A DNA stretch of 27,761 nt from a virus, in the IMG/VR virus record IMGVR_UViG_3300022688_000026, positions 1-27,761 of that record; one strand, given 5' to 3'. Positions 5,478-24,685 of the stretch are shown in pieces. The translations under genes were made by a program, and so were the position numbers. The notes below the pieces were generated by a model that saw nothing but the letters and a program-made list of their open reading frames with translations, had not been told where the DNA came from and did no database searches. Numbering within the stretch: the first letter of the stretch is position 1; the number at the start of each line of letters is the position of its first letter.

Positions 5478-6007
5478 GGGTTTTGTCCCGGCGCTATGGT
5501 CACCCACCCGTTGACTAGACAACCGGTGGCCCCCAAGTCGACTTCATTGGATGAGTTTTGAAGTTTGATATACCCGGTGGTGGGTGAAATCGTAATCGCC
5601 CCGGCGGCATTGTAAACTTTAATTTCTCCCGTGTTGGTCATTTCAAAAATCCCCTTTTGCTCGCCACTTGTGTCCGTGGCGTACACGTCCACCGCCCCGG
5701 TGTTTTTGAGGTGAACGTAAGCTAGGCGGGCACCGTCACTCCCGCGGGAGTAAATGTAGACCCCGCCATTTCCCGCCCCGTTACTTTGGGCCACGTCCAC
5801 AAAACCCACAATGACATATTCTTCCGCCCCGTCCACCTCCGATAAAATGGCCAAATCACCTTTCAAGGGCTTGCTATGGAATCCGGCGGGGGACGTGTCC
5901 AAAACGGTGACCACGTCATTGGCGCCAAGGTCCACGGTAATCTCCGCCGCCTTGTCACCGTCCACGGTCACGTCTTTATACTCGACTATTTGACCTATTC
6001 GTCCCAT
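5474..6007 (-). CDS. Baseplate spike protein, Mu gp45 / gpV-like
   Basis: A 177-residue protein of the Mu gp45 (baseplate assembly protein V) type, the central spike that punctures the outer membrane. The N-terminal ~85 residues form an OB-fold-like beta domain (GDLAILSEVDGAEEYVIVGFVDV), followed by a glycine-rich linker and a C-terminal beta-helix-like region with repeated short strands (GAVDVYATD, GEIKVYNAAGAITISPTTGYIKLQN, NEVDLGATGCLVNG). That repeat pattern is typical of trimeric spike shafts. It overlaps the upstream hub gene at its start and the downstream gene through ATGA. It is somewhat shorter than Mu gp45, so the tip may be provided by another protein. Confidence 0.88.
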   Translation of the reverse strand: MGRIGQIVEYKDVTVDGDKAAEITVDLGANDVVTVLDTSPAGFHSKPLKGDLAILSEVDGAEEYVIVGFVDVAQSNGAGNGGVYIYSRGSDGARLAYVHLKNTGAVDVYATDTSGEQKGIFEMTNTGEIKVYNAAGAITISPTTGYIKLQNSSNEVDLGATGCLVNGWVTIAPGQNP

Positions 6008-7233
6008 GGCAAACTTTCCGGGGCCACCCCCGTAAATGATCCCGGCAATATGAGTCCTAAACGCGCTACTTCTGAATGGGCGGTTTGTTCAAGTGTCACG
6101 TCTCTGATCAAAAATTCATACTCGTTATAAATCATAGCGTCCGGATACTCGATTTTGATTGTAGTGTTGGGCGTCCAGAGCTCCCCTTGGGGGTCCCTCC
6201 ACGTGGCCACGTCCACGGTGTAAGCGACCGCGTTGGCCAGCATACGCCCAAAGCGGGACGTGGCGGCCACGCGTGCGTCCGATTTTCGGCCGTTTTTGCA
6301 AATAAAATTTGAGGACCTGAAAAACCCCCGTCCCTTGGGATTTGTCACCGTATAACCGGCGCCCCGTGACCCCAATTTTGTGGTTTTGATGGCCGTGACG
6401 TCACTAAAATATTGTTGGGGGTTTTGGGCCCCTTGGGTCACCCCTAATAGTGGCTGGCTCCCCTGCTTTAAAACGGCCACGGGTTTCCCGGGTGCGGTGG
6501 CTTGGGTGAAGACGGCTTCCCCGGTGGGGTTGTCCGTGATAATTAAATTTCTTTGCTTGGCCAATTCGGAAAGGAAAGAAAGGATCGTTTGTTCGGGCTT
6601 CAATTTGACGCGGCGAAAGGGGGCACCCGGGTCCGCATCAAAAACCACTTCAACGTCGTAGTATTGACACACTTCAATCGCTATTTGTTGGAGGTTAAGC
6701 CCGTTCAGCTCAATCGGGAACGCGGAAATCGGCGCCGTACAATCGTTTAGAACCCCCGGGAAGCCATACCCGGACACGTTAACCGTGGCGCCCCCCTCCA
6801 CGCCCTTGGCGGTCACGTTGACCATGGTCCCGGTGAAGTGTAGGGCGCCCCCGATAAACAGATTCAAAGCCACAAATCGGAAGGGCCGGAACGTGTCCCG
6901 GAATTCCCGTGAAGTAGGTTCGAATGGTGCGGTGAATTGCGCGCTCGAGAATTTGTCAATGCTGCGTTGGATTTGGGCGTTGGTCCAGTGTTGGAACGTC
7001 TTGGCGTCCACCCGGACTTCAACTTCATTGAGGGCCCCCGCGGTGCCTTGCTGTGACGTGTTTTGGGGGGCGGACGTGTCCGTGGGGGTGGTTAGAACTT
7101 CCCCCGCCTTGAAGGGTTCCCGGGCTCCCGGGTTGGCCTTGCGTATTTTATAGGCTTTACGATCATCACCGTACACAATACGGGCCACCGTTTCAAACGT
7201 ATCCCCGGCCCTTGCTGTGTACGTGCTAGACAT
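5995..7233 (-). CDS. Baseplate hub protein, Mu gpP (gp44)-like, with N-terminal LysM domain
   Basis: About 412 residues from the ATG at 7233, which overlaps the upstream stop as ATGTCTAG; an in-frame start at 7281 would add 16 residues lying inside the previous gene. Residues 1-50 are a LysM-type module (YTARAGDTFETVARIVYGDD ... NP...EPFKAGEVLTTP), a peptidoglycan-associated fold common in tail hub proteins. The remainder resembles the gpD/gpP hub (T4 gp27 type), with segments such as GGALHFTGTMVNVTAKGVEGGATVNVSGYGFPGVLNDC, EQTILSFLSELAKQRNLIITDN and a C-terminal DVTLEQTAHSEVARLGLILPG. The hub joins the tail tube to the spike. A LysM fused in the same polypeptide replaces a separate protein such as P2 gpX. 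Confidence 0.88.
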   Translation of the reverse strand: MSSTYTARAGDTFETVARIVYGDDRKAYKIRKANPGAREPFKAGEVLTTPTDTSAPQNTSQQGTAGALNEVEVRVDAKTFQHWTNAQIQRSIDKFSSAQFTAPFEPTSREFRDTFRPFRFVALNLFIGGALHFTGTMVNVTAKGVEGGATVNVSGYGFPGVLNDCTAPISAFPIELNGLNLQQIAIEVCQYYDVEVVFDADPGAPFRRVKLKPEQTILSFLSELAKQRNLIITDNPTGEAVFTQATAPGKPVAVLKQGSQPLLGVTQGAQNPQQYFSDVTAIKTTKLGSRGAGYTVTNPKGRGFFRSSNFICKNGRKSDARVAATSRFGRMLANAVAYTVDVATWRDPQGELWTPNTTIKIEYPDAMIYNEYEFLIRDVTLEQTAHSEVARLGLILPGSFTGVAPESLPWDE

Positions 7234-8488
7234 AATATTTGATTTTCCGTCCCTTGGGGATCTCCAAAATTTCCACCCCACTTAAATTGTTTGAGTTGAT
7301 GAAGAAGTCCAATTGGTCTTCAAACCCTTCTCCGTAAAGCTCGTATCCCAATTCCAGCATATTGCGGGCGCGGTCCAAAACCACCGCCCTTTCTTGCTTC
7401 AATGTAAAAGAGATCCGGACCAAGAAACCGGCGGCAAGCCCCACCGCATCCACTAATGATTGGTACCCCTGGCCAATGTCAACCAAGTTGTAAGCCGGAA
7501 GGGCTTCCGTATCTAAAGCCGCTAGATAATCCCAGTTGGCGTCCAGCCATGTCAAATACGTTTCCCACTGGTCAAGTAGGGTGAGGGCCGCTTCCAACGC
7601 TTCCGACCGGGTGTCAAATTGGTGGTTAATAACGGACACTACGGACCCCGAAACATATCCGGAAGCAAACAAATCCCGGGTCAAAAACTTGTTGGCATCA
7701 CTGGACGTGGCATCCGGCCGGCCAAATATATCCGCCGCCAAATTGCCATACGCGTCCAAGCGGTCCCGGATTGCCGTGGCCGCGCGCGCGGGGGCCTGAA
7801 TTGCTATCTTGGTTTGAAAAGCCAAGGTGAGGGGGTCTCGAATTAGAACATCAATACCCCGGTTGATACTGTCATTCACCTGGTTGAATTGGTCATTGAC
7901 TTTTTCCGTAGTGGCCGCGATACGAGAAGTGGCTTCCGACACTTCACCCAAAAACGATTCCACACGGTCTTTGAAAGTGATAGTTTCCGCTTCCGAATCC
8001 AAATCAATTTGTTTTTCGAACTGTGCCGCGCTTGCCGCGTTAAAGTCGTCCACAGAAGCCGTCACGGTACCGGAAAGGTCGGTATCTCCCGCGGGGTATA
8101 TGACCCCAAGGGTTTCCCAAAACTCGACTTCCAGCACGGTTTGGTTGGCCGCGGTTTTAAGGTCATCCCGCCGGGTGATCTCGCCAAACGGAACGACGTC
8201 CGCGGGGTCATATAGGGGGTGTTCAAGACGTCCAAAACCGTCTTCATTGAGTAAAGCCACAAAACCCTTTGCTTCAATGTCATGGTCATCGCCGGAAAAA
8301 TAGCAAAGCATGGGGAAGCGCCGGCCGGAAGTGCCGCGGCTTTGGATATACGTCCCATTGACGTTGGCAAATTCATAGGCGGTGGCTTTTTTGGTCCAAT
8401 TGTACGAAACGTCTTCAAAATCAAACGTCAACCGGTTGCCGTTGGGGCTTGTATATGCGGCTTCCTTGATTCGTTGTTCCCAAGACAT
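7226..8488 (-). CDS. Mu gpN-like tail/DNA circularisation protein
   Basis: A 420-residue protein whose first ~130 residues match the DNA circularisation N-terminal domain family of Mu gpN: WEQRIKEAAYTSPNG, FDFEDVSYNWTKKATAYEF, RRFPMLCYFSGDDHDIEAKGF, then LEHPLYDPADVVPFGEITRRDDL. In Mu-like phages the protein is a tail/baseplate structural component located between the tape measure and the hub; the circularisation label is historical. The rest is helical (long stretches between residues 150 and 380). The ATG lies 2 bases after the tape-measure stop, and the gene's end overlaps the LysM-hub start. Confidence 0.9.
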   Translation of the reverse strand: MSWEQRIKEAAYTSPNGNRLTFDFEDVSYNWTKKATAYEFANVNGTYIQSRGTSGRRFPMLCYFSGDDHDIEAKGFVALLNEDGFGRLEHPLYDPADVVPFGEITRRDDLKTAANQTVLEVEFWETLGVIYPAGDTDLSGTVTASVDDFNAASAAQFEKQIDLDSEAETITFKDRVESFLGEVSEATSRIAATTEKVNDQFNQVNDSINRGIDVLIRDPLTLAFQTKIAIQAPARAATAIRDRLDAYGNLAADIFGRPDATSSDANKFLTRDLFASGYVSGSVVSVINHQFDTRSEALEAALTLLDQWETYLTWLDANWDYLAALDTEALPAYNLVDIGQGYQSLVDAVGLAAGFLVRISFTLKQERAVVLDRARNMLELGYELYGEGFEDQLDFFINSNNLSGVEILEIPKGRKIKYYV

Positions 8489-8490
8489 TA

Positions 8491-10107
8491 TTAATATGAC
8501 CCCGTTGGTTGTAAGGTGACCCCCTGGCCAAGTTCCCCGGACGTAAGGGCGGCCCGTCCGGTGGCGTCCCTTATCGTCACTTCCGCCGTGGAGGACTTTC
8601 TTGTCTCCTGAATCATTCGGGCCGTCTTTTGTTCGGAAGTTACAAGGCGGCTTTGGCTCCCGGCCCCCGCGTCCCCCTCACTACCAAAACCGAAAAACCC
8701 GCCCACTTTTTTGGCCACGTTGATCGCCGGGGCCGCGAACTCCAACACCTTGGCCACCGCGTTTTTGACGGTCGCCACAATGCCGTCCCAAAGCTCCACA
8801 AAAAAGTCCTTAAGCATCTCCCACGCATCCCGGATCTGGATGGAGAAATCTTTAAAGAAAGCCATCATCTTTTCCCACACTTTGAACTTGATAAAAAGAG
8901 TGGTCAAAATAGCAATCAAAGCCACAACACCCATAATAATTAGGACCACCGGGTTGGCCGCCATGACCAAATTGATCACGGTCAAGACACCGGTTAGTAT
9001 TTTGACTATTGCAATGAGGGACCCGATAATCCCGATCACAATGGCAATCCCCCTGGCATTTTCCACCACCCATTTGATGGCCCCGCCAAGGGCTTCCATA
9101 ACTGCAAAAAATTTACCCACGGCCGCTTTGTTGGAGATCAAGTTTTGGATGCCCTTGGCCAATTTGGTAAAGCCCGTTTTTAGGCGTTCCACGACTTCCG
9201 CCACACGGGATTTAATCAACTCTTGGTTATTCGCCACCCACTCCCGCACCTTGCCGGCGACACCGATCATTTTGGTCATTATGTCTTTGATAACCGGGGC
9301 CAATGTTTCGCCCAAAGACGCGGCGGTCAATTGGATATTGTCCTTCAATGTGGAAAAAATTCCGGAAGTCGTTTTTGACGCTATTTCCATCCCCTTGAAG
9401 AAAATGCCCCCTTCACCGGTCATTTTTTCAAACGTCCCGGTCAAGTCTTCCACGGACACTTTGCCGGCGGAAATACTTTTGAAAAACTTCTTGTCAACGG
9501 ACTTGCCCATGGACTTGGCCAATTCGGTGAAAATGGGGACCCCCGCTTCCGCTATCATGTTAAGGGATTCCATATCCACTTTCCCTTTTAAAGACGCTTT
9601 GGTGAAACCCCGGGTGATAGACTCCATCTTTTGAGCATTGCCGCCGGCGGTATCCCCTAGCATTCTAATCGTCTTCACCGTCCGTTTGATGTCCCCTTCC
9701 ATCACTGGCAATAGTTGGGATGCACTTCCGGAAAGGGTTTCAAGCTGAAAAGGGGTGGTGGCCGCGGTTTGATTCAACGCATCCACCATTTCCTTGGCTT
9801 TTTTCGCGCCCCCCAATAATGGGGTGAAAGCGGCTTCCGCGTCTTCCACTTTGGAAAATTGTTTTACGACATAACCAATTCCGGCGCCCAATGCCAAAAG
9901 ACCGCCCAAGGCCACCTTGCCGGCCGTCTTGGCCACACGACCAAAGCCACGGACTAGTTTATCCGATACCCTATTGAGACCTTTGAGCCCCCGTTTCATG
10001 CGGTGGGTGAAACGGGCAATTCGTCTTTGCATCTTGCCAAGGGGCTTGGACATTTTATCAACGGCTTTAAATACCGTTTTGATTGTCAATTGTTTGGCCA
10101 CGGTCAC
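8491..10107 (-). CDS. Tail tape measure protein
   Basis: A 538-residue tape measure protein. It starts with a basic helix region (TIKTVFKAVDKMSKPLGKMQRRIARFTHRMKRG), continues with the conserved tape-measure domain (KVEDAEAAFTPLLGGAKKAKEMVDALNQTAATTPFQLETL, residues ~85-130, and GEGGIFFKGMEIASKTTSGIFSTLKDN, ~230-255), and has hydrophobic membrane-like segments at about 350-420 (GIAIVIGIIGSLIAIVKILTG, ANPVVLIIMGVVALIAILTTL). The start is GTG with a GTGA overlap to the chaperone extension; another in-frame GTG at 10101 is better spaced from an AAAGGGG motif and may be the real start. Family rules of roughly 0.15 nm per residue suggest a tail near 80 nm, which is inference. Confidence 0.93.
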   Translation of the reverse strand: MTVAKQLTIKTVFKAVDKMSKPLGKMQRRIARFTHRMKRGLKGLNRVSDKLVRGFGRVAKTAGKVALGGLLALGAGIGYVVKQFSKVEDAEAAFTPLLGGAKKAKEMVDALNQTAATTPFQLETLSGSASQLLPVMEGDIKRTVKTIRMLGDTAGGNAQKMESITRGFTKASLKGKVDMESLNMIAEAGVPIFTELAKSMGKSVDKKFFKSISAGKVSVEDLTGTFEKMTGEGGIFFKGMEIASKTTSGIFSTLKDNIQLTAASLGETLAPVIKDIMTKMIGVAGKVREWVANNQELIKSRVAEVVERLKTGFTKLAKGIQNLISNKAAVGKFFAVMEALGGAIKWVVENARGIAIVIGIIGSLIAIVKILTGVLTVINLVMAANPVVLIIMGVVALIAILTTLFIKFKVWEKMMAFFKDFSIQIRDAWEMLKDFFVELWDGIVATVKNAVAKVLEFAAPAINVAKKVGGFFGFGSEGDAGAGSQSRLVTSEQKTARMIQETRKSSTAEVTIRDATGRAALTSGELGQGVTLQPTGSY

Positions 10108-13735: not shown

Positions 13736-14092
13736 TTATCTGGCTTTTTTCTTGACTCTGCCCAATTTCAGCTCCGGGGGTTCATCCACGGGCGCGGGTG
13801 CGGGTGCGGGTGCGGGTGCGGGTGCGGGTGCGGGTTCCTCCACGGGCGCGGGTGCGGGTTCCTCCACGGGCGCGGGTTCTTTATAGACCGGGTCCGGGCC
13901 GCCCTCCACCCCCCTCAAATGGAGTGATTTCCTATAATCCGCCCACGTGACCACAAACCCTTTTTTCAAAAGCCCTTCCAAAATTTCTTCACCGTTGACC
14001 CAATACGATTCGTCAACGGCTTCACCTTCCCCAACAATGCCTTTTTTGCTTGTGAGGGACTTTCCATATGCAACCACTAATTTCTTTTCCAT
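13736..14092 (-). CDS. Head-tail zone protein with Pro-Ala repeat tail (FI/gp35-like)
   Basis: 118 residues from an ATG at 14092 that has an AAGGGAAG site upstream; longer in-frame starts lie inside the capsid gene and the terminator and are unlikely. The first ~65 residues form a compact domain (KKLVVAYGKSLTSKKGIVGEGEAVDESYW, then GEEILEGLLKKGFV) that resembles small Mu gp35-type proteins near the capsid gene. The C-terminal part is low complexity: alternating PVEEPAP and PAPAPA stretches from about residue 70 to 102, then a basic end (KLGRVKKKAR). It may be an exposed flexible arm or binding tail. Function is unknown. Confidence 0.65.
   Translation of the reverse strand: MEKKLVVAYGKSLTSKKGIVGEGEAVDESYWVNGEEILEGLLKKGFVVTWADYRKSLHLRGVEGGPDPVYKEPAPVEEPAPAPVEEPAPAPAPAPAPAPAPVDEPPELKLGRVKKKAR
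13788..13883 (-). repeat. Low-complexity tandem repeat encoding Pro-Ala/Pro-Val-Glu-Glu arm
   Basis: A 6-base unit (GCACCC on the minus strand) is repeated many times, interspersed with longer GAGGAACC-containing units encoding PVEEPAP. Copy number in such tracts changes readily by slippage while keeping frame, since the unit is a multiple of three. The tract lies within the coding region of the small protein at 13736-14092. Confidence 0.85.
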
Positions 14093-14108
14093 TTTAACTT
14101 CCCTTTTT

Positions 14109-14150
14109 ATAGAAAACCGCGGGGGCCCTATGGCGGAAAGACCCCCGCGG
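14109..14150 (-). terminator. Rho-independent terminator-like hairpin after the major capsid gene
   Basis: CCGCGGGGGTC (14150-14140) pairs with GGCCCCCGCGG (14127-14117): eleven pairs with one G-U, a 12-base loop, followed by TTTTCTAT. It lies 7 bases after the capsid stop and just before the ribosome binding site of the next gene. The strong stem and T-run make it a good intrinsic terminator. Since downstream genes have no obvious promoter, it probably works as a partial terminator setting high capsid to connector ratios. Confidence 0.75.
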
Positions 14151-14157
14151 CCCCTTG

Positions 14158-15240
14158 TTAGATGTCCGTGTCCAAACAACCAAAGGTGTCAATGGCCGTG
14201 GGAATCAATAGCGGACGGGAAGCAACCCCACCCATAAGACTTGACCCGTCCGGGGTCACCCACGCATTAGGCCAGAGATCCATCCGACCGCGAACATTAC
14301 GCATCCGGGACGGCATATACCTCAAAACCCGGGCATCCGGCGGGACAAAGCGGGGGCAAGCGCCAAACGTGGCGTCCAACCGGGCCCCCGACGTGGCCAA
14401 AATCACCTTGTCATTGGGGACGTAAAGCGTCTTGGTGCCCGTTTGGGGGTGCTTATACCGCCCATTGTAGGTCCACAATTCATACGAATAATTCCCCGCT
14501 TCGAACATCCCGCGAAAAATCCCACCGTTCCCAAGCTTCCGCATTGTGCGGATATTGCCAAGGTCGACCCGGCGGGTATCAAACCGCTTCATGAAATCCG
14601 AGTCATTGATACATGTTTCGAAAGACCCGGCGCCCATGATAATTAAATCCGGGTCCCCAAGGCCGTCGTTCCGGATGACTTCCGAAAGAGAATTCAAATC
14701 CGCGGCTTTGGTGGAGCTCGCATTGTCCCACGCCACGGAAGCGGTGGGGAAATGTGTCGCTTTGGGTTGGTAGGAAAGGGTGTATACCGCGTTCCCATTT
14801 TCATCCACCAAAGTCACAATGCCAGTGGTCAAAATTTGGGACGCCTGCAATTCGATAGATCGACGAATTTTACTTTCCACGCGGCGGAAATTTTTCATCG
14901 AACGCAACATTGCTTTGGCCTGTGCCGCCACGTCCGCGTTGGTGGTGGTGCCGGCTTCCCGGGTCAAAAGGTCATAGTCTTGAAGCGCAAACGCTTCTTT
15001 ATGAACCGGCGGCTTGAATTGCTTGTTTGTGGTGTCGTCCGTTGAATTCCACTTGTACCCCGTGGAAAGATCGGTAATTGCCACGGAAAGGGCTTCATCG
15101 TCCCTTTCAATGTCAATTTCCACTTCCTGGCTTTGGTGGAAGTTTTCCGGCGGGGACGAAAAAAGCCCCGATAGAAAAAGGGTTGGCGGTGCGCTTTGAT
15201 TGTACGCACTTATCATTTTCCTGGTTACTGTTGTGCTCAT
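14158..15240 (-). CDS. Major capsid protein (lambda gpE family)
   Basis: A 360-residue protein of the E-type major capsid family (HK97 fold). Visible family features are LSGLFSSPPENFHQSQEVEIDIE (about 23-45), the loop segment KPPVHKEAFALQDYDLL, the long spine-helix region AQAKAMLRSMKNFRRVESKIRRSIELQASQIL (about 105-137), and the C-terminal segment LYVPNDKVILATSGARLDATFGACPRFV near 272-300, then the RMDLWPNAW motif. Length is close to lambda gpE (341). It forms the hexamers and pentamers of the head after scaffold-led assembly and protease maturation. The gene starts 15 bases after the decoration protein stop. Confidence 0.94.
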   Translation of the reverse strand: MSTTVTRKMISAYNQSAPPTLFLSGLFSSPPENFHQSQEVEIDIERDDEALSVAITDLSTGYKWNSTDDTTNKQFKPPVHKEAFALQDYDLLTREAGTTTNADVAAQAKAMLRSMKNFRRVESKIRRSIELQASQILTTGIVTLVDENGNAVYTLSYQPKATHFPTASVAWDNASSTKAADLNSLSEVIRNDGLGDPDLIIMGAGSFETCINDSDFMKRFDTRRVDLGNIRTMRKLGNGGIFRGMFEAGNYSYELWTYNGRYKHPQTGTKTLYVPNDKVILATSGARLDATFGACPRFVPPDARVLRYMPSRMRNVRGRMDLWPNAWVTPDGSSLMGGVASRPLLIPTAIDTFGCLDTDI

Positions 15241-15255
15241 ATCAAAAACGCTCCT

Positions 15256-16527
15256 TTACTGGTTGTCCTGAATGTTCAACTCTTTGACGTCCACGGCCAC
15301 GATACCGTAACTACGCAAAAGGTCCGTGTGAACATTCGTGACGGTGGTTCCATCCGCAATGACAAGGCGGTTTTTGTCGACTTCCCCGGCAATAATCGCC
15401 CGGATATAATTGTCCCCGTTGGCCCCCGCCAATTCCACGGGCATCACCGCTTTGGGGATACCGTTTTCGTTGGCGGTAATTGTCTCCACGGACAGGCCAA
15501 AAGCGGTCAATGCAGTGCCACCGGTGAAGTCCAATTCCGTGGTGGCCTTGATAACCGCCGCGTCCCCGGACACCGTGACGGTGGCCGTGGTGTCGGCTTC
15601 CACAACGGTCTTGAATTCGGTTGCGGTGACTGCGTCAATATCCCCGACATCACCGGTTCCGGCCGTGGCCGCCGCCCAACTCAAAGCGCAAGTCCCGGTC
15701 CCAATGGTAATATCAAAATCGGTCCCCTTGCCGTCCGTTGTAATGAGTAACTGACCCCCTGAAACGGAAACGGAAGCCCCGTCCAATTGGGCGTTCATCT
15801 GGGCCGCCACTTCCGCCACTTCCGTGGTTACCCCGGAAAAAGTGACGGTCTGGGCGACACCGTCAAAAGCGCCGCCACTGATAGTAACAATTTCCGTCAA
15901 ACCATCTTGGTCCGCAAGGCCCCCGGTGCCGGCCACGGCCGCGGCCCAAGTGAGAGCTCCGGTTCCGGCCGCAACTGATACCGATGAATCCACGCCAACC
16001 GAATCGGAGGTGATCTTCACCTGGCCGCCTACAACGGCAACCGAGCAACCACTGAGTTGGGCGTTCATCTGGCTCGCAACACTTGCCGCGGTAGTGGTTA
16101 CCCCGGAAAAAGTCACGGTTTGGGGTGTGCCACCGTCCACCGTGACAATGGACGTGAGTCCGTCTTGGTCCGCCACCGCATAAGTGGTGGTGTCAGTGAT
16201 TGAACCGGACGTCCCGCCGGTATATGTCGTTGTATCCGCAATTGTGGCCGCCGCCGCATCAAAAGTCGCGGTGGCCGCCCCTACGTCGTTCACGTCGACA
16301 ATCACGGTTTGCCCGGGTTCAATGTTGAACGGGCCGTCCCCGGTGCTTTTGAGGGCCGCGCCATTGGGCACATAGTTGACCAGTTTCCCGGAAACGGAAT
16401 CGCGGGCCAAAATTTGACCTTCCGAAACCGTTTGGGCCCCGGAAAGATTCAAAGTCTCGTCTTGAAAACGGCAATCCCTGTGTTGGATACTTCCAACGTC
16501 ATTGTTGGTAATTGTAATGTTGGCCAT
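15256..16527 (-). CDS. Head decoration protein (lambda gpD type) with large tandem-module insert
   Basis: A 423-residue protein occupying the gpD slot between protease and capsid genes. The family normally has 110-150 residues. Residues 1-75 (TLNLSGAQTVSEGQILARDSVSGKLVNY) and about 350-423 (NENGIPKAVMPVELAGANGDNYIRAIIAGEVDKNRLVIADG ... LLRSYGIVAVDVKEL) match the decoration fold. Between them sits an insert of some 270 residues with two tandem modules at 119-202 and 205-292, each starting ADQDGLT.IVT and containing QTVTFSGVTT, MNAQL.G and a closing W-AAA.AGTG, plus a further Thr-rich region. The module pattern (a helix with INAQL-like core, then strands) resembles flagellar hook IN-type insert domains, which would make a surface knob on each trimeric D spike. 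The start is TAATG with the protease stop. Confidence 0.83.
   Translation of the reverse strand: MANITITNNDVGSIQHRDCRFQDETLNLSGAQTVSEGQILARDSVSGKLVNYVPNGAALKSTGDGPFNIEPGQTVIVDVNDVGAATATFDAAAATIADTTTYTGGTSGSITDTTTYAVADQDGLTSIVTVDGGTPQTVTFSGVTTTAASVASQMNAQLSGCSVAVVGGQVKITSDSVGVDSSVSVAAGTGALTWAAAVAGTGGLADQDGLTEIVTISGGAFDGVAQTVTFSGVTTEVAEVAAQMNAQLDGASVSVSGGQLLITTDGKGTDFDITIGTGTCALSWAAATAGTGDVGDIDAVTATEFKTVVEADTTATVTVSGDAAVIKATTELDFTGGTALTAFGLSVETITANENGIPKAVMPVELAGANGDNYIRAIIAGEVDKNRLVIADGTTVTNVHTDLLRSYGIVAVDVKELNIQDNQ
15652..16173 (-). repeat. Two tandem ~85-codon modules inside the decoration protein
   Basis: Copy 1 covers 15922-16173 and copy 2 covers 15652-15915. They share ADQDGLT, QTVTFSGVTT, QMNAQL, SV.V.GGQ, IT.D..G.D and ALxWAAAxAGTG, and their DNA keeps recognisable blocks, such as CACTTTTTCCGGGGTAAC-like segments. 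This indicates an internal duplication that is not very old. The modules differ by one short loop (GGAFDGVA in copy 2). Confidence 0.8.
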
Positions 16528-16877
16528 TATTCCACCAACCCTTCTTCAAAAACCCCAAGCCCTTCGATCACCGCTTCACAAACCATGTCTTCTTCTGTCT
16601 TGACGGGCTTGTCCAATTCCCCGTTGACTTCCGGAGGATTGTCCGCGGTGCGGGCCGCCATTTGGGCTTTTTTGAGCCCCGCGGCTTGATACTTGGCGGT
16701 GTAGAGCGAATCCAATTCCGCCCCGCTTTTGATGGCTTCCATTGCCGTGCCCATGTCCCCGGAAGCTTCCCCCATAACCAAATGGGCTTCCGCTCGTTTG
16801 CGCTCGGTCATAACCCCCATATTGACCGCCGCTTCAAACACTTCCGGATGATCCTTTTCCAGTGTTTTCAGATCCAT
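16527..16877 (-). CDS. Nested scaffold protein from internal start (Nu3-like)
   Basis: An in-frame ATG at 16877 (codon 268 of the protease) has an ideal GGAAGGG Shine-Dalgarno 6 bases upstream. It would give a 116-residue helical protein (MDLKTLEKDHPEVFEAAV ... GVFEEGLVE). In lambda the scaffold Nu3 is made from an internal start in the C gene in the same way. No separate scaffold gene is present between protease and decoration. The site is seen; the scaffold role is known for the family; actual use is inferred. Confidence 0.65.
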   Translation of the reverse strand: MDLKTLEKDHPEVFEAAVNMGVMTERKRAEAHLVMGEASGDMGTAMEAIKSGAELDSLYTAKYQAAGLKKAQMAARTADNPPEVNGELDKPVKTEEDMVCEAVIEGLGVFEEGLVE

Positions 16878-17678
16878 TGCTTTCCCTTCCATTTGTTTTT
16901 CACCGCCGGCGGCGGTCTTTAATTGTCCAACCAAGTCTTGTAGACTCGAAACCCCGTCAATCATTCCGCGCTCTAAAGCTTCCGCGGCCAAAAATATGTC
17001 ACCCTTGCCGTATTTTTGTAATACAGTATCACGGTCCACGCCACGGTTGGCCGCCACATTATTAATAAAAATATCGGCCATGGCATCCACTTGACCTTGC
17101 AATTTGGCCAACCCTTCCTTGGAAGCCGGGTCCCGCCTTTTGTAAGGGCTTTGGGACGATACCACGGTGATTTCCCCGGTCTTGGCCCACGGGGTCACCG
17201 TCCCCACCACCCCAATGGACCCCACAAGGGCGGTCTGACTGGCCACAATGTTGTCCGCCGCGGACCCAAACCAATACGCCGCGCTGGCCATTGTGCCCGT
17301 CACAAAAGCCGTGGTGCGCTTATTGAGGGCCCTTATTTGGTCCGCCAAATCAGGCATCCCGGTGACCGATCCCCCGGGTGAATCCATCAAAATCACAATG
17401 TCAGTGACGTCATCGTCCGCTTCCAACGCCCTTAAATCCGCGGAAATTTGCTCCACACTAGACAACCCAAAAAGGTCGGCCAACCAAGAACTGCGAGGCA
17501 TAACAGGCCCGGACACGTCCAGGAAGCCCACATTGCCGTTGATGGACACTCGGTCCGCCGTGGCCAATTTGGCCCCCGTGTCCGCCGTGACGGCCCCATA
17601 CAAAACCGCCAAGTGTTTGGGGTCCATCCCCCAAATGTGTTGCTGTATTTCCGCCAACGCTTTTGGATTGTATTCCAT
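16527..17678 (-). CDS. Head maturation protease (S49/SppA-like, lambda gpC type) with C-terminal scaffold
   Basis: A 383-residue S49-type capsid protease. Residues 95-140 carry the core ILMDSPGGSVTGMPDLADQIRAL and GTMASAAYWFGSAAD, where Ser132 is the expected nucleophile, and Lys180 in SPYKRRDP is the expected general base. Residues 150-160 (ALVGSIGVVGT) and 228-241 (IFLAAEALERGMID) are further S49 hallmarks. From about 262 the sequence becomes charged and helical, the scaffold portion as in lambda gpC/Nu3. The protease digests scaffold and itself during head maturation. The start abuts the LamG gene stop (TGAATG), and the stop overlaps the decoration start (TAATG). Confidence 0.93.
   Translation of the reverse strand: MEYNPKALAEIQQHIWGMDPKHLAVLYGAVTADTGAKLATADRVSINGNVGFLDVSGPVMPRSSWLADLFGLSSVEQISADLRALEADDDVTDIVILMDSPGGSVTGMPDLADQIRALNKRTTAFVTGTMASAAYWFGSAADNIVASQTALVGSIGVVGTVTPWAKTGEITVVSSQSPYKRRDPASKEGLAKLQGQVDAMADIFINNVAANRGVDRDTVLQKYGKGDIFLAAEALERGMIDGVSSLQDLVGQLKTAAGGEKQMEGKAMDLKTLEKDHPEVFEAAVNMGVMTERKRAEAHLVMGEASGDMGTAMEAIKSGAELDSLYTAKYQAAGLKKAQMAARTADNPPEVNGELDKPVKTEEDMVCEAVIEGLGVFEEGLVE
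16884..16890 (-). promoter_or_regulatory. Internal ribosome binding site for the nested scaffold
   Basis: GGAAGGG inside the protease coding sequence, 6 bases before the in-frame ATG at 16877. A second ATG at 16892 has a weaker GGTGA site. Confidence 0.6.
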
Positions 17679-19667
17679 TCAAACCACCCCTAAATAGTGC
17701 GTGATTGCGTAGTCCCCTTTGACGTCGCCCAGTGCGATCATGTCACCCACCTCAGGTTCGAACGTCAAAAACTTTGATTCGGTATTTGTCGCATTAGTTA
17801 TAGGGTTCGTACCCGACCCGCCCGTCACGTCCACTAACGTATCATTCATGTACGTTGTAAAAACACCGCCCTCGCCAACCGTAACTCTATATTTGTTCCA
17901 TTGTCCCGATGATAAGTACCCCGCGGCCGTCAATTGCATTAACGTCCGTGACCCGCTCACTCGATAATACATACTATATGCGTCATCATTGTTTAATAAA
18001 ATCTCATATCCGTCAAAACCAGTTGCCGTTGGCGCCGTTTTTTGACTCGCAATGAAACAAACCCGCGGTTGGGTCCCCGGTGTCGCTTTATACACCCACC
18101 ATTCGAAAGTACCACGCGCCGCGCCCGCCGCGCCGACACGAAACAAGCTTGCGGGCATGGCCACTACACCCGCCGTGACGCACTTGAGCGCGCGCACTGG
18201 CCGCCCGTCAATTGTATCCGTCACGACATTAAACGACCCACTCACGACCTCGAAGGGCGTATTGCTGAGCGGTCCGCTCGTCACGGCCGCGCTCGTTTCG
18301 CGGGCGCCAAAATCAGTCTTGAAGGTCACAGTTTGAGCACCCTTGGCGTACTCGGCCGCTATCTCGTCGGGTGTTAGGGCGCGGTTGAATAGCTTGACGT
18401 CCGCAACGTCCCCAATTAGGTATGTCGAACCGCCATACGATCCTAAACGGAAGTCACTCGCGTTAGTAATTGTGCCGACACTCGTAACGGTTCCGACGCG
18501 CGTATCCGTATCGTTAACGCCGTCTATATAAACTCGGCAACCCGCTTGACTATCCCTATCGGCAACAATAGCAATTTGATGCCAAATAAAGTCTGTAACC
18601 GCGCCCGCCGCGGTAACAGTCAAAGTGTTGACGCCGTCCTGTATTTCGAAATAGGGCTTATTTGACGCATCAAACCCGACTTTATACGAGGCCGAACCCG
18701 ACGATCCCTTTTGGCATAGTCGTCTACTCGCGGCGCCCGGCGTTCGGGCCCACGCGATAAACGAAAAATCACCCGTACCGAAATTTAACGAATCGCTAGT
18801 ACCACAATTTATCGCGCCCGCGAGCCCGTCAAAATTCGCCGCCCTCCCCAAAACAGTATTAAAAAATGAAATATCCGTATCGCCTAAACCTAAATAGCTC
18901 GGACTACCGTCATTCCCGTTACCACTTTTATCAAAGACCGTGCCGCCCACGGCACGCATATCCCACGCGCCCACAAGGCCCGTGTCGGCCGTGTCCACTT
19001 CGATCCGTGACTTCGCGTGTGAGTAGACCTTATGTGGCCAACGGGCCGCTTTGAGGGCCCCGTAGACTTGCGCGTGCTCCGTGGCGGTAAGCGCTTTGTT
19101 GAATAGGCATATAGCGGACATCGTTTGGCCCAATACTCGACCGGATAACAGCCTATTACCCACTCCAATATCCGCGGTTCCGCTACCCTTCGCTAATACT
19201 GTCGGAAAAGCGCTTATAAACACGCCGTTTGCATAAAGATTAGGCGCGGCGCCGTCCGCCCAACTAAAAGACACGTTTCTAACATCGTTTAATTTCGCCG
19301 CAACACCCGCTAATACGGAGGGTGCATTATCAATAAGAAAAACAACAGTATTATTGTCAACGTCCAAATAGGCCGCAATACCGCCGACTTGTTCATAAAA
19401 TCGTCGAGTGGTGCCGGTTTCATTACTTCGCAAGCGACCGGCGAAATGCATAACTGAGGACATCCCATCGCCGTTGCCTATATCCAATTCCGCACTATAC
19501 GGAACCGTGACCAGGCTACTTTGATCCGTAAAACCGGCCCCATCGCGCGTCAATCCCGCGCCCGTGGGCGTCCCGTGGTTGCCATTCCCGGACCAATCCC
19601 GAAAAGACCCGGAACGGTAGTCATGGTACAAAACGCACCCGCCAATTTCATTCAAGAGATCAATCAT
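17679..19667 (-). CDS. Large LamG/concanavalin-like multidomain protein
   Basis: About 662 residues from the ATG at 19667, which has GAAAGG 7 bases upstream and overlaps the previous stop by 8 bases; a TTG at 19685 would add six residues. Three jelly-roll units are visible. Unit 1 (about 5-205) has DWSGNGNHG at 24-32 and ends AICLFNKALTATEHAQVYGAL. Unit 2 (225-435) has GLVGAWDMR, DKSGNGNDG at 246-254, FDGLAGAINCG, DFSFIAWA and ends DVADVKLFNRALTPDEIAAEY. Unit 3 (445-660) is a more diverged lectin-like sandwich. These are hallmarks of LamG/laminin-G-like carbohydrate-binding folds. There is no signal peptide or catalytic motif. It sits in the head operon just upstream of the protease, so a virion-attached adhesin is the leading inference. 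Confidence 0.82.
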   Translation of the reverse strand: MIDLLNEIGGCVLYHDYRSGSFRDWSGNGNHGTPTGAGLTRDGAGFTDQSSLVTVPYSAELDIGNGDGMSSVMHFAGRLRSNETGTTRRFYEQVGGIAAYLDVDNNTVVFLIDNAPSVLAGVAAKLNDVRNVSFSWADGAAPNLYANGVFISAFPTVLAKGSGTADIGVGNRLLSGRVLGQTMSAICLFNKALTATEHAQVYGALKAARWPHKVYSHAKSRIEVDTADTGLVGAWDMRAVGGTVFDKSGNGNDGSPSYLGLGDTDISFFNTVLGRAANFDGLAGAINCGTSDSLNFGTGDFSFIAWARTPGAASRRLCQKGSSGSASYKVGFDASNKPYFEIQDGVNTLTVTAAGAVTDFIWHQIAIVADRDSQAGCRVYIDGVNDTDTRVGTVTSVGTITNASDFRLGSYGGSTYLIGDVADVKLFNRALTPDEIAAEYAKGAQTVTFKTDFGARETSAAVTSGPLSNTPFEVVSGSFNVVTDTIDGRPVRALKCVTAGVVAMPASLFRVGAAGAARGTFEWWVYKATPGTQPRVCFIASQKTAPTATGFDGYEILLNNDDAYSMYYRVSGSRTLMQLTAAGYLSSGQWNKYRVTVGEGGVFTTYMNDTLVDVTGGSGTNPITNATNTESKFLTFEPEVGDMIALGDVKGDYAITHYLGVV

Positions 19668-20958
19668 CGTTCGCCTTTCGGCCAAGGCGTAACGTAAGAT
19701 CGGCCACTTGTAGAGGGGTTAAAGCTTTTTGCCAAACCATGAAACGGGTTATTTTGCCGTTAAATTGCGAAGCGGCCCCATCATATCTCGCGCCGATCGA
19801 CAAAACCGCGGGATCGGTCTGCGTCCACGCTGTATTGTCGTTTTGCACAATGGGCACACCGTTAATCCATACGCTTGTGTCCGCCGATACGCCCGAAACG
19901 ACTAAAACGCACCGCCGATTTTTTGACCAATATGGCGAATACGTCGCCGGGGCAATATCGGTGATTAAACTTTGCCCCAAAACAACACGCAAATCGTTAG
20001 ATGTTTCTTTTCGAACATAATACCTGACTCCACTTGTCGAGTCGAAAATAAAATATTCACTGCCGTCCCCCGCTTCAAAATCCGGTTCGAATTCAATCGC
20101 AATCGTCACGCCCGCCGCATTAAACACGCCCGTACCTACCACCGTCATATAGTCCCCACCGTCGAAATCGTACCCATGACGCGCGAGTTTTGTCGGGTAG
20201 GTTGTCGGCGTTGAACCGTCGCCAAATGTGGCGTGCCGAGCATTGCCACTCACGTCGAGCGTGCGAACGTTGGTGGGGTCGTGTTGCGCGGCGCCCATGG
20301 GCAAGTCAAGCGACGTTTGCTCGCGATACGAGTACACGTCATCATTGTAGAAATCGAGCGCTTCCTGTTGGGTTAGCTTGCGATCATAGATTTGAAATTT
20401 TGTGATACGGCCGTCAAAATACACGACGCCCGCCCCTAAACGAAACCCTAATATGTGCCTTAAGACGTCATGCGAAACAAAAGGTGTCACGACACTACCA
20501 ACTAAGTACCCATTTAAATAGACACGTACGCCCGAAGAATCCCCTTCCACTACCAAAACATTTCTTTTGTTTTGGTACCAATAACTTTGATACGTCCCCG
20601 GATTACAAACAACAGTATTCTTGCCGAGTCTACAATTTAGGGTGTCAGATGACACTTTTAAAATAAAATCATCGGGACCCGTGGCCCATAAATAACGGCT
20701 AACACCATCGTTCACTGCAAAATCCGGGTAAAATTCTAAAACCACGGAAGCCCGGTCCAAAATAAAACTATTAGTTACTATCCCTTCATATTGGACATAC
20801 TGCGTGCTACCGTCCAGAGTCACGCCCTTGTCAATTGCGGGCGATCCCACCGGTGACCCGCCATTACGCGCGACCGCCGCCGGGTTCTCGAATGTTTCGC
20901 TAAACACGCAACCGCGTGCACGCTCGGCCGCCGTCGTGTTGAGAGGCAAGCGACTCAC
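19660..20958 (-). CDS. LamG/concanavalin-like two-domain protein
   Basis: A 432-residue protein made of two similar lectin-like beta sandwiches. Unit 1 (about 10-205) contains GVTLDGSTQYVQYEG, ASVVLEFYPDF, YWYQNKRNVLVVEGD, VRVYLNGYLVGSV and the closing FDGRITKFQIYDRKLTQQEALDFY. Unit 2 (215-425) has the parallel series YDFDGGDYMTVVG, TIAIEFEPDF, YWSKNRRCVLVVSG, TSVWINGVPIV and NGKITRFMVWQKALTPLQ. The duplication is clear from these repeated landmarks. The start is GTG with a GTGA overlap to the small helical gene. It is cotranscribed with the larger LamG gene, and the two may assemble together or bind different glycans. Confidence 0.82.
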   Translation of the reverse strand: MSRLPLNTTAAERARGCVFSETFENPAAVARNGGSPVGSPAIDKGVTLDGSTQYVQYEGIVTNSFILDRASVVLEFYPDFAVNDGVSRYLWATGPDDFILKVSSDTLNCRLGKNTVVCNPGTYQSYWYQNKRNVLVVEGDSSGVRVYLNGYLVGSVVTPFVSHDVLRHILGFRLGAGVVYFDGRITKFQIYDRKLTQQEALDFYNDDVYSYREQTSLDLPMGAAQHDPTNVRTLDVSGNARHATFGDGSTPTTYPTKLARHGYDFDGGDYMTVVGTGVFNAAGVTIAIEFEPDFEAGDGSEYFIFDSTSGVRYYVRKETSNDLRVVLGQSLITDIAPATYSPYWSKNRRCVLVVSGVSADTSVWINGVPIVQNDNTAWTQTDPAVLSIGARYDGAASQFNGKITRFMVWQKALTPLQVADLTLRLGRKANDD

Positions 20959-21254
20959 GATTCATCCACCACGGTCAATTGCGCATAACGGCGGGCCCGA
21001 TATTGAACCACACGTTCAATTTGTTCGCGGGTTAGTTTCCATTTTTGACCTTGCGGGCCGGCGACAATTAATTCCCGCTTAATTTCCTTGAGCGACTTCC
21101 CCTGGCGCACTAAATCCACAATTTGAAGGGCCAGGGGCACGGTCAAATCGACACGTTTGGGTGGCGTCGCCACGCGGGCGGCCGCTTCGGCCTCTGTCTC
21201 CAGTTGCTCTAATGTGAGCGCGTCAATTGCTTGTTTGATCTCTTTTAGGCCCAT
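20955..21254 (-). CDS. Small helical protein of unknown function with HTH-like half
   Basis: A 99-residue, charged, mostly helical protein. The N-terminal half is acidic (LTLEQLETEAEAAARVA), the C-terminal half basic. The stretch IVDLVRQGKSLKEIKRELIVAGPQGQKWKLTREQIERVV looks like the helix-turn-helix part of large recombinases (pattern G.SL..I...L...G.....W....), but nothing else of a recombinase is present. LKEIK occurs twice (near residues 3 and 55). It lies between the beta-rich proteins and the LamG genes, ends in a GTGA overlap, and could be an adaptor or assembly factor for them, or a small DNA-binding protein. I do not assign a family. Confidence 0.7.
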   Translation of the reverse strand: MGLKEIKQAIDALTLEQLETEAEAAARVATPPKRVDLTVPLALQIVDLVRQGKSLKEIKRELIVAGPQGQKWKLTREQIERVVQYRARRYAQLTVVDES

Positions 21255-21259
21255 TTTTA

Positions 21260-21796
21260 TTACTCCAAACCGGTAGCCGTGACATTAATTTCCCATCGCA
21301 AGACAATCGGATCACCGCTATACGTGTCGCCCGACACATCCCGGTCAAATTGCGCAACAATAATATCGCCGGCCTCAACTGGCTGGTTGACGTTGTCGAA
21401 ATCGATCACAATATCCGACACGATAAATTCTTTATCCGTGCCCGCGCCGGATTGCGTGTATGTCGTTGTCGCCGTGACCGCGGTACCGTTGTCAACCGCC
21501 TCACCCTCGTCTATTGAGCGATATTGCAAATCCCATTTTACAGTTTCCGTGTCAGCTATTGCGTCGCCCGACTCGGGCACCCAATAGACACGAAAACGTA
21601 TATCACTCGCGCCATCCCACGACTCCGGCACCTCAAACTGGAAATTGACCGATTCGTTGTCCGCCGCGAATTGAAGGCCGCGGGCCGTGCCAATTGTGGC
21701 TCCACTTGGAGCCGTCGGGCCTAGCGTCGCGCTATTGGCCGAGATCCTTTCATGCAGATTGTACGGTGCTAATACGTCGCCGCTATAAGTAGTCAT
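21260..21796 (-). CDS. Beta-rich virion protein of unknown family
   Basis: A 178-residue, mostly beta protein with alternating hydrophobic strands (NFQFEVPESWDGASDIRFRVYW, EFIVSDIVIDFDNVNQPVEAGDIIVAQFDRD, PIVLRWEINVTATG). It resembles a single jelly-roll or carbohydrate-binding-like sandwich. The start codon overlaps the preceding stop by one base (TAATG). It belongs to the cassette between portal and protease, and probably contributes to the same surface structure as its neighbours. No enzymatic motif is visible. Confidence 0.7.
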   Translation of the reverse strand: MTTYSGDVLAPYNLHERISANSATLGPTAPSGATIGTARGLQFAADNESVNFQFEVPESWDGASDIRFRVYWVPESGDAIADTETVKWDLQYRSIDEGEAVDNGTAVTATTTYTQSGAGTDKEFIVSDIVIDFDNVNQPVEAGDIIVAQFDRDVSGDTYSGDPIVLRWEINVTATGLE

Positions 21797-22860
21797 TAGT
21801 ATAACCTCACGCCGTAGATCGTAATGTCCGCGTCATCGGCGGCGCCCGTCGCGGCGACGCACTTGAACCGAATATAAGTGTACCCGGCAAGCTTTTCAGC
21901 GTTATCCGCAAGGATCGTGTCCGCGGTCCACGTGGCGGCCCCAAAAGTGCCGATCCCAATGTCTTGATACGTGCGAGAAGCCGCCGCGACGCCTTCGTCT
22001 TGGCAGGTTCCCTCGAGGGAAACAGTCATTGTGCCCGACCCGCCGTTGATCTCGAGTTGGAAAAACCCCTTGCGGTAGTTATCCATCGAAACATAGCGAT
22101 AATACGTACCATCGGCAATATTGGTCTCGTCAATAATCGTGTCCGCTTGGCCGCGAGTGTCGATCGGGTCGATCTCTTCCACCCGGCCGCTCTCCGTGGC
22201 GGTTGTCAATGTTTCGTCGCGCGTTTGCAGTCGCAAGGTGCCGTCGATACCGGCCACGTCATATTTACCGACGCCCTCGATCCACACAGCCACGTCATAT
22301 CCAACCGTAAGCACGGCCGAACCGAACGTAATCGTGCCACCCGAATACGAGATCGCAAGATTGCCCGACCCCCGGCCGTAAACCCAATCCCAGTCGACTT
22401 CCCCGGACCCCGCGCGTATCGCGATCGCAACAATTCGATCGACGTCGACGGTCAACGCGCTCGGTAAATTGGTCAAATCGATTTCGGTAGTGGACGAGAT
22501 CGCCGCGGTGAAATCATCCCTCAAATTAGACCAACCGTATTGGCCGAGACTCGCCGCCGCGGAAGCCGCATTAGCAATTTCCAAAGCCGCTTCCGCGGCT
22601 TCAATCGCCGCCACCGTGGCCGCTCCCGTGGCCACAACGTCCGCTTCCACATCGTTGACCGCGGACACCGTGGCCGCTCCCGTGGACGTGACTTCCGCTT
22701 CCACATCGTTGACCGCGGATACCGTGGCCGCTCCCGTGGACGTGACTTCCGCTTCCACCGCCGCCACGGCCGTTTCTACATCGTTGACCGCGGCCAATAA
22801 AGCCGCGCTTGCCGTGGCCCCCGGGGGCCGGTTGCCGATAACAAGATCATTGTTGCTCAT
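21796..22860 (-). CDS. Fibre-like protein with N-terminal helical repeats and beta C-terminus
   Basis: A 354-residue protein. Residues 1-20 look like an attachment peptide (MSNNDLVIGNRPPGATASAA). Residues 24-105 are an Ala/Val/Glu-rich helical region with three 18-residue units at 32-85 (core VNDVEAEVTSTGAATVSA), typical of coiled-coil stalks in fibres. Residues 110-354 are beta-rich, with segments such as FTAAISSTTEIDLTNLPSAL, GGTITFGSAVLTVGYDVAVWIEG, FFQLEINGGSGTMTVSLEG and a terminal YTYIRFKCVAATGAADDADITIYGVRLY. This is the classic stalk-plus-head layout of a trimeric phage fibre, but it lies next to the portal rather than the baseplate. It is possibly a head or neck fibre. The start overlaps the upstream stop as ATGA. 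Confidence 0.75.
   Translation of the reverse strand: MSNNDLVIGNRPPGATASAALLAAVNDVETAVAAVEAEVTSTGAATVSAVNDVEAEVTSTGAATVSAVNDVEADVVATGAATVAAIEAAEAALEIANAASAAASLGQYGWSNLRDDFTAAISSTTEIDLTNLPSALTVDVDRIVAIAIRAGSGEVDWDWVYGRGSGNLAISYSGGTITFGSAVLTVGYDVAVWIEGVGKYDVAGIDGTLRLQTRDETLTTATESGRVEEIDPIDTRGQADTIIDETNIADGTYYRYVSMDNYRKGFFQLEINGGSGTMTVSLEGTCQDEGVAAASRTYQDIGIGTFGAATWTADTILADNAEKLAGYTYIRFKCVAATGAADDADITIYGVRLY
22606..22767 (-). repeat. 54-base tandem repeats (18-residue units)
   Basis: Three consecutive 54-base units encode VAAVEAEVTSTGAATVSA, VNDVEAEVTSTGAATVSA and VNDVEADVVATGAATVAA. The first two share the same DNA over most of their length. The unit keeps the frame, so stalk length could vary by whole units. 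Confidence 0.9.
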
Positions 22861-23117
22861 AACGACACCAAAACCCTTCCATCATATCCCCCGGCCCGGA
22901 TATAAATATCAGAAGCCACGTCCACCGAAATGGGTAGACCCGGTTCTGGCATCTCGCTCCCAAGCGAAGTGTCCGTAGGGGGGGCCCCACCGGTTGCAAC
23001 GTAATAGTGCATATAGGTTGCTTGGGGCTCCACGATCCACACTTGCCCTTCCGTCACATTGGTGGCCACCTTGGTCCACGTATTTTTTGTGAGATCAAAA
23101 GCTACCGGTGAAGCCAT
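22857..23117 (-). CDS. Small beta-rich virion-type protein, unknown
   Basis: An 86-residue protein directly after the portal. The sequence (FDLTKNTWTKVATNVTEGQVWIVEP, YYVATGGAPPTD, ISVDVASDIYIRAGGYDGRVLVSL) has the alternating strand pattern seen in many small phage structural proteins with a compact beta sandwich. Similar small proteins can precede fibre proteins in tailed phages. No signal peptide is seen. The gene begins two bases before the portal stop region and ends as ATGA with the fibre-like gene, so it is the first member of the inserted cassette. Confidence 0.72.
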   Translation of the reverse strand: MASPVAFDLTKNTWTKVATNVTEGQVWIVEPQATYMHYYVATGGAPPTDTSLGSEMPEPGLPISVDVASDIYIRAGGYDGRVLVSL

Positions 23118-23119: not shown

Positions 23120-24685
23120 CTATTTCCCTTCAAGCGCGTCAATGGCGCTTTCCAAATTGTCCGAAGCTTCCGCCACGGGAGCTCCCCCACCAACCAACGC
23201 TCTTTGGGCTTCCACCAATGGTTGGAGGGCTTCCGCTTTCAATTCGTTTTCTTTTTTTAGCCTTTTGATATTCTTCCGAAACTTGGTCCCGGTCAATTCC
23301 CTTGCGGACCGCTCGTTAGTGGTCCAACCTTCCGTGGTCATGGTTTTGAAGCCGTTGGCCATCTTGTTGATATCCACCGCCGGCTTAATGGCTCCGGACC
23401 AATCCGCGGACGTCCACGCCCCCAACACGTCCCATTGACGGGGGTCCGCCCGGGCTTCCAGGAAACCGGGGGCGGACACCTTCCCCAACAAAACGTTGGA
23501 CGTCAATTCCTCAATCCAAATGGGGTGCAAAACGCCTTCACCCACCCGGGTCCGCTCGCTATTGAGATACATCTTAAATTCGTTTGTGGCCGCTTGGGAC
23601 GCACTGTAATTGTGGGAAAATCCAAGTTGAAGAATTTCGGGCGGAATTTCATTAGCCCACGCAATTGTGGCAATCACAGCCGCTTCAAAAGCCCCAAAAT
23701 TAACGTCCGTCCCTTGCGTGGAATAGGGGACGGGAACTTCCCCGGTCTGCAATTCCTCAAAATAAACCCCGGGGACTTGCTCGGCCAGATTAAAAGTCCG
23801 TTCCGTCCCGGTGTTGTCTTCCACCGTGCCACTTCCCCGACGGACCGCGGCCCCGGTCATGGGCTTTGTGCCCATCTTGTCCGCATCTTTGCGGATATAC
23901 ATGGCAATAATGGCATTGATTATGGCTTTTCGGACCGCCGCGTCCCGGTACCGGTCGATCTCTTTCAACCCTTGGAGCATCAAGGACAAAAGCGGTTGGC
24001 CCCGAACATCGTCTTTCCGTTTATCGGTGGCATAGAATAACCACGCCACCCGTCTTCCCGAATTACGACCCCACGCCGGCACCCGCTTGGACCGCCCATT
24101 CTCTTGAGTGACCCAATACGCCACGTGGCGCCCCTTCCGGTCCACTTCCACACCGTACCTTATGTCACGTTGGCCGGGATCTTCCGGGTCCTCAACAAGC
24201 CGTCCCGACACCAATTGGACCTTGGGAAAATTCGTCACGTCATCAATATGCACAACAACTAAAATGTCCCCTTCCACAAGGGCTTCCCGGTATATCTCTT
24301 TTTGTAATTGGCCGTAAGTTTGCCGGCCGACAAAGTCACACAAAAGAGGGTTGGCCGCCCAAAGGGCGTGTCTGTTTTCAACGTCTTCCCGCCAATCGTT
24401 TAAAGAGTCTTCCGGGACCCCGATAATCTTTTCGTCCGGGGTGGATTCAAGGCCCAATCCGGTGTTGATTATGTTGGTCACAAGGCGGCGAATTAGGCCA
24501 CGGGCGTAAAGATTTTCGGTGAATAATTGGGCGGACCGCTCCCGTAATGTCCAATAGTCAACCGCGTAAATATTGGTGCCACCAAAACCGCCAAAAAATT
24601 TGTCCCCGTCCCACAAGGCGGATGAATTAACGGGGCTCGCAAACTCGTTCGCGGCCAAAAACACCGGTTCAACTTTCGAATTCAT
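23120..24685 (-). CDS. Portal protein (lambda gpB type)
   Basis: A 521-residue portal of the lambda B family that forms the dodecameric DNA channel at one capsid vertex and docks terminase. The landmarks are RSAQLFTENLYARGLIRRLVTNIINTGLGLESTPD (about 50-85), the wing region with WREDVENRHALWAANPLLCDFVGRQTYGQLQKEIYREALVEGDIL, and the conserved PEILQLGFSHNYSASQAATNEFK near 345-367. It ends with a Glu/Ala-rich C-terminus. The ATG follows the W-position gene by 9 bases. Length matches lambda gpB (533). No internal protease domain is present, consistent with a separate S49 gene. Confidence 0.94.
   Translation of the reverse strand: MNSKVEPVFLAANEFASPVNSSALWDGDKFFGGFGGTNIYAVDYWTLRERSAQLFTENLYARGLIRRLVTNIINTGLGLESTPDEKIIGVPEDSLNDWREDVENRHALWAANPLLCDFVGRQTYGQLQKEIYREALVEGDILVVVHIDDVTNFPKVQLVSGRLVEDPEDPGQRDIRYGVEVDRKGRHVAYWVTQENGRSKRVPAWGRNSGRRVAWLFYATDKRKDDVRGQPLLSLMLQGLKEIDRYRDAAVRKAIINAIIAMYIRKDADKMGTKPMTGAAVRRGSGTVEDNTGTERTFNLAEQVPGVYFEELQTGEVPVPYSTQGTDVNFGAFEAAVIATIAWANEIPPEILQLGFSHNYSASQAATNEFKMYLNSERTRVGEGVLHPIWIEELTSNVLLGKVSAPGFLEARADPRQWDVLGAWTSADWSGAIKPAVDINKMANGFKTMTTEGWTTNERSARELTGTKFRKNIKRLKKENELKAEALQPLVEAQRALVGGGAPVAEASDNLESAIDALEGK

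Follow-up and report, generated by a model that had tools for sequence, protein, structure and literature searches.

The window, by which we mean the whole stretch of DNA analysed, is a complete IMG/VR virus record of 27.8 kb and, judging from the size of its relatives, is probably part of a genome of about 43 kb. Its late genes lie on the minus strand and comprise terminases, portal, S49 protease, a decoration-type protein, capsid and neck genes, together with contractile sheath and tube, tape measure, baseplate and three fibre-tip genes, several of these names having been assigned from position and from annotated relatives. Between the portal and the S49 protease, an interval referred to here as the slot, six close-packed minus-strand ORFs (g1 to g6) occupy positions 17679-23117. 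A preliminary description of this DNA had placed six genes at this site, and a reading of the ORFs junction by junction confirms it. The cassette, its boundaries and its internal features are as follows.

23120-24685, minus strand: portal of the lambda family, bounding the slot on the left (Pfam Phage_portal_2, E=5.4e-54; PHROG portal)
22857-23117, minus strand: g1, 86 aa, all-beta (family alignment; AF2)
21796-22860, minus strand: g2, 354 aa, fibre-like, with an N-terminal IGN peptide, a helical stalk and two C-terminal beta regions
22831-22842, minus strand: VIGN peptide, g2 residues 7-10, putative docking peptide (motif count)
22612-22758, minus strand: 54-bp tandem repeat in the g2 stalk (TRF, 93% match; 18 aa, 2.7 copies)
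21260-21796, minus strand: g3, 178 aa, beta-rich-looking by sequence, an orphan
20955-21254, minus strand: g4, 99 aa, helical-looking, conserved in the cassette (homologues in L039 and L038)
19660-20958, minus strand: g5, 432 aa, two Laminin_G_3 domains, each half above the Pfam cut-off
17679-19667, minus strand: g6, 662 aa, three segments, the middle one a clear Laminin_G_3 domain (Pfam E=1.8e-25)
16527-17678, minus strand: S49-type head maturation protease, bounding the slot on the right (Pfam Peptidase_S49, E=1.3e-20; PHROG 53)

The portal and g1 are 2 bp apart, g1 and g2 overlap in ATGA, g2 and g3 meet at TAATG, g4 and g5 at GTGA, and g6 gives way to the protease at TGAATG. The overlaps reported earlier (ATGA, TAATG, GTGA) are therefore present, with the exception of the g3-g4 junction, which is a 5-bp gap. 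The overlap of g5 and g6 amounts to 8 bp if g6 starts at the ATG at 19667, a start that is conserved in L039 and hence appears better placed than the listed TTG at 19685. Since every junction, including those with portal and protease, either overlaps or spans no more than 5 bp, the cassette lies embedded within the head operon. Five of the ORFs (g1, g2, g4, g5 and g6) have same-order counterparts of about 34-82% identity in independent contigs, and are thus not chance reading frames.

The complete cassette recurs, co-linear, in two related 43-kb phages (L038 and L039), and the claim that the six genes act as a single block is upheld by these copies. In L039 the portal (72% identity) is followed by g1 (63%), g4 (44%) and g6 (47%) and then by the protease; in L038 the order is unchanged, at identities of 34-47%, and a third contig, L002, carries g1 and g2 at its end. 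A fourth locus, L147, is distant in its portal (24%), TerL (27%), sheath (29%) and capsid (25%), with a protease at 35%. In its slot a g1 (37%) comes straight after the portal, and g6, divided over two ORFs (32% and 36%), comes straight before the protease; a 185-aa protein of this slot is 39% identical to one of the L039 slot proteins. The codon usage of g5 and g6 is likewise divergent, with RSCU correlations (r) of 0.38 and 0.40 against 0.68-0.90 for 11 of 12 core genes and 0.48 for the remaining one. Because the cassette genes of L147 are closer to those of the window than its core genes are, and because g5 and g6 diverge in codon usage, horizontal movement to the same genomic place is suggested, and the module appears, on these sequence comparisons, to be mobile. 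Single-sequence scans for cassette relatives returned none for g3, g5 and g6 and only L002 for g2, the remaining relatives being reached solely through alignment- or portal-based searches. Against cultured phages, tblastn found no direct relatives of g1, g2, g3 or g5, and only weak LamG matches for g6.

The earlier reading of the block as combining a helical-stalk, fibre-like protein with lectin-fold proteins is borne out. The AF2 model of g2 has a confident helix at residues 15-104, the remaining beta part being of low confidence, so that the usable part of this model is the helix. The 18-aa tandem repeat lies within the helical stalk, and in alignments the length of this stalk differs between relatives. 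Identity of g2 to the proteins of L039 and L002 is 61-82%, the L039 protein reaching 76% across the C-terminal 248 residues. The L038 protein keeps the N-terminal peptide and the C-terminal domain (47%), and the stalk and middle are missing.

For g5 and g6, Laminin_G_3 (PF13385) scores of 67.6 and 90.3 bits compare with a curated cut-off of 27.6, which each half of g5 and the middle third of g6 also exceed when taken separately. The preliminary description had assigned LamG folds to two multidomain proteins; this stands for g5, with two domains, and for g6, with at least one, the N-terminal and C-terminal thirds of g6 giving no Laminin_G_3 match when scanned singly. Searched as a profile, g6 finds ConA-like/LamG domains in proteins of solved structure, the best match being an S-layer-domain protein (E=6e-9), and g5 matches tail proteins among the PHROGs. 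Homologues of g5 in L039 (52%) and L038 (34%) both carry an extra N-terminal region of about 430 aa; Beta_helix is matched by a single one of the scanned slot proteins, in keeping with the extra region of the L039 homologue. The L038 homologue of g6 is 35% identical. Neither an IGN peptide nor a recognised anchor was found in g5 or g6. The ligands of the LamG domains in both proteins are probably glycans, borne by the host surface, by mucus or by particles. As to the small proteins, g3 has no match in Pfam, PHROGs, phages or the PDB, and two 169-aa proteins occupy its position in L039. Conservation of g4 is confined to the cassette (37% identity to L038), and its candidate roles are those of an assembly factor or a regulator. 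A RovC_DNA-bd match (E=0.0013) raised the idea of a transcription factor, which we rejected, as the match is sub-threshold and occurs in the window copy without being reproduced in the homologues.

To place the cassette in context, relatives were gathered by portal similarity from viral contigs, genomes and annotated phages, and the portal-protease interval was measured. In this sample, which is non-random and includes near-duplicates, both ends of the slot were present in 101 viral or phage loci, where the interval was below 180 bp in 60, 180-499 bp in 3, 0.5-2 kb in 32 and above 2 kb in 6; ten further contigs run more than 500 bp beyond the portal with no protease within the available stretch. 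Lambda has no genes between portal and protease. The statement that lambda-type phages lack genes here thus holds for lambda and for some 60% of the relatives, and fails for the 41 of the 101 resolvable relatives in which the interval is at least 180 bp. The slot is empty in the cultured phages Scuro, VP16T and PS15B, and holds one or two genes in SppYZU01, PD0307, PY6, SFCi1, AeroV_348 and 367.14. Occupied slots contain 0.2-6.4 kb of fibre-like, collagen-like or beta-rich genes. Pfam Collagen was matched by 5 of the 64 slot proteins scanned, and collagen-like fibre genes occupy the slot in SppYZU01, PD0307, 367.14, L072 and L100; other slot proteins match beta-helix, Ice_binding or PHROG tail-fibre families, and the slot gene of AeroV_348 is annotated as a virion-associated protein. 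Given this occupancy and these contents, the slot can be described as holding optional, mostly fibre-type genes, and the cassette, since 60 of 101 relatives have an empty slot, as accessory.

The smallest member of the cassette offers a clue to how such genes might work together. The AF2 model of g1 is all-beta, with five strands and a mean pLDDT of 86.7, and it has no confident match among solved structures, either by profile search or among the top 50 PDB Foldseek matches. Compared with BFVD, it resembles a spread of function-unassigned phage proteins of 80-95 aa (best E=4e-5, TM 0.77), as well as segments of a few that are longer. g1 belongs to a family of all-beta proteins of 80-90 aa, members of which form the first gene of the slot at many loci, and the slots of PY6 and SFCi1 also begin with a g1-like ORF. 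In L099 and L116 the slot is filled by g1 alone, and two fibre-like proteins, of 617 aa in L068 and 397 aa in L098, begin with a fused g1 domain. The L068 slot (5324-9066) contains such a fusion and a second, stand-alone g1, then two successive proteins that start with IIGN. Copies of g1 were not found as prophages in 399 genomes of one phylum, in a search without a positive control, and other family members compared with phages gave nothing or one weak match to a Bacillus phage.

A g1 of the WTxVAT type is associated with a particular N-terminal peptide in the protein downstream. The motif [VIMTL]IG[ND] occurs in the first 25 aa of 8 of 8 separate proteins downstream of such a g1, as against 3 among 1660 other ORFs 120 aa or longer; the motif was spotted by inspecting these same loci, and half of the eight proteins are g2 itself or homologous to it, so that the independent cases number four (L046, L068, L111 and L147, not detectably related to g2). 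Other g1 subtypes precede other N-terminal types, such as MLxxL in L102 and VP16C. The g1 family, including its two N-terminal fusions to fibres, and the association of WTxVAT-type g1 with the IGN peptide are what is new here. We infer that g1 docks the fibre through the fibre's N-terminal peptide.

We propose, with somewhat better than even confidence, that the best explanation of these data is an accessory adhesive appendage of the virion, with the portal-protease junction serving as an insertion slot for swappable adhesion modules, of which the cassette would be one. Under this proposal g1 would attach to the particle as a small beta adaptor, and g2 would plug into g1 by its IGN peptide and extend a beta-tipped helical stalk whose length varies; g3, g5 and g6 would add binding subunits. 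The proteins would be made alongside those of the head, and the adhesion that they confer would be reversible, non-essential and exerted before, or beside, that of the tail fibres. Attachment at the head or neck is plausible, the main argument being gene position, and it is modestly favoured by that position together with the occurrence of g1 alone beside the portal. We would also put forward, much more tentatively, that a docking site at the portal vertex or neck takes interchangeable kits, g1 being recognised by the IGN peptide of unrelated fibres, so that exchange of cassettes would swap appendages (in this case a multi-LamG array) between distant phages.

A more specific form of appendage, the neck collar spike, is a possibility that we regard as less likely than not. 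In Vibrio phage XM1, the neck-bound beta domain of gp40, about 100 residues long, is continued by a helical stalk that leads to a receptor-binding end (PMC10457771), and an accessory adhesive role has been proposed for it in what is a simple contractile phage (PMC10457771). The layout of the cassette is similar, in that the g1 beta domain precedes a fibre with the IGN peptide and a helix, and in L068 and L098 the two are fused; the small beta N-terminal domain, the coiled-coil stalk and the receptor-binding C-terminal part of gp40 may all have their likeness here. In contrast, gp40 is a single fused polypeptide of 839 aa with an Ig-like N-terminal domain, for which no LamG partners have been described, whereas g1, all-beta and 86 aa long, is usually a separate gene and the predicted helix of g2 (15-104) lies on a different chain. 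A search for XM1-family membership of g1 gave no match, no XM1 entry appearing in the profile search or among the top 50 Foldseek matches in the PDB.

It is also conceivable, if rather doubtful in our estimation, that the products are receptor-binding proteins of the tail or baseplate that merely happen to be encoded beside the portal, with g1 joining a fibre to the tail. In VP16C (L155, 23525-26282), a g1-like 77-aa protein (orf28C) lies directly upstream of an 839-aa fibre-like protein (orf29C), outside the head operon and beyond the tail-fibre genes, and because of this pair gene position does not fix location on the particle. A search for a solved collar spike related to orf29C gave no PDB match. 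LamG proteins occur within the baseplate operon of L142 (48-896), where the portal-protease slot is empty, and downstream, in the tail/lysis region rather than the slot, of L143; these, together with the PHROG tail-protein matches of g5, also speak for a tail location. Against it, the window has baseplate fibre genes of its own (826-2566), with a counterpart in G002, from which the cassette is separate, as had been noted before; moreover, the slot adjoins the portal in all slot-bearing relatives, although position alone cannot decide. A non-structural function (scaffold- or maturation-associated, intracellular glycan-binding or regulatory, with g4 as a DNA-binding regulator) would fit a cassette within a head-morphogenesis operon and the sub-threshold RovC_DNA-bd match, but is improbable, as virion appendages are the typical setting of LamG, beta-helix, collagen and helical-stalk architectures and the slot, being empty in most relatives, is not needed for head maturation.

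The accessory appendage that we propose is already known in kind, and it is the adaptor-peptide rule and the LamG content that distinguish the cassette. The claim of an undescribed system was therefore too strong, given the head or neck fibres of phi29 (gp8.5), SPP1 (gp12), XM1 (gp40) and 7-7-1, and given the ordinary collagen-like fibres carried in the slot by cultured relatives. Capsid-borne alternatives are represented by phi29 gp8.5 and SPP1 gp12 (PMC7602432), the former resembling g2 as a dispensable, head-associated fibre with a helical stalk (PMC7602432). It belongs, however, to another type of virion and has no detectable homology to g2, the g2 profile having no PDB match at E<=0.1. 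We know of no adaptor or lectin genes that accompany gp8.5. SPP1 gp12 and the collagen-like capsid fibres are comparable in that collagen-like fibre genes occupy the slot of relatives; the cassette instead uses LamG proteins, and no window protein has a Pfam Collagen match (GXY repeats). AeroV_348, SFCi1 and PY6 share the genomic slot and the order of head and tail genes, but have one or two small beta genes where the cassette has six, lack LamG and carry other types of N-terminal peptide. In Agrobacterium phage 7-7-1, capsid appendages make the first contact with the host (PMC12796354); the fibre genes are not identified in that paper.

If the proposal is correct, environmental contractile phages would keep optional surface-binding proteins in a recurring genomic slot, and a predictive rule (a g1 adaptor followed by an IGN-type peptide) would find such modules among hypothetical proteins. 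The adaptor-peptide pair could likewise explain how adhesins are exchanged while the tail fibres remain unaltered. A correction of annotation also follows, as a slot protein is called a portal protein in one record and PHROGs of the same name match slot fibres. The record is that of PD0307 (L030, 5378-6508), where the name 'portal protein' is given to the collagen-like slot protein and 'putative capsid protein' to the real portal. Matches of slot fibres to PHROG 1289/2271 ('portal protein') are accordingly discounted as annotation carry-over, the real portal being the adjoining gene.

The decoration-type protein (15256-16527, 423 aa) matches short head decoration homologues at residues 1-57 and 352-423 and carries an insert of about 295 aa with internal repeats; a full-length form is found in L039 (71% identity), and L038 has one without the insert. 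Within the neck region, a 147-aa protein (13736-14179) ends in a Pro/Ala/Glu repeat tail derived from 6/24-bp tandem repeats. The fibre-tip genes at 826-2566 are three adjoining paralogues of 191-207 aa, where G002 has a single copy.
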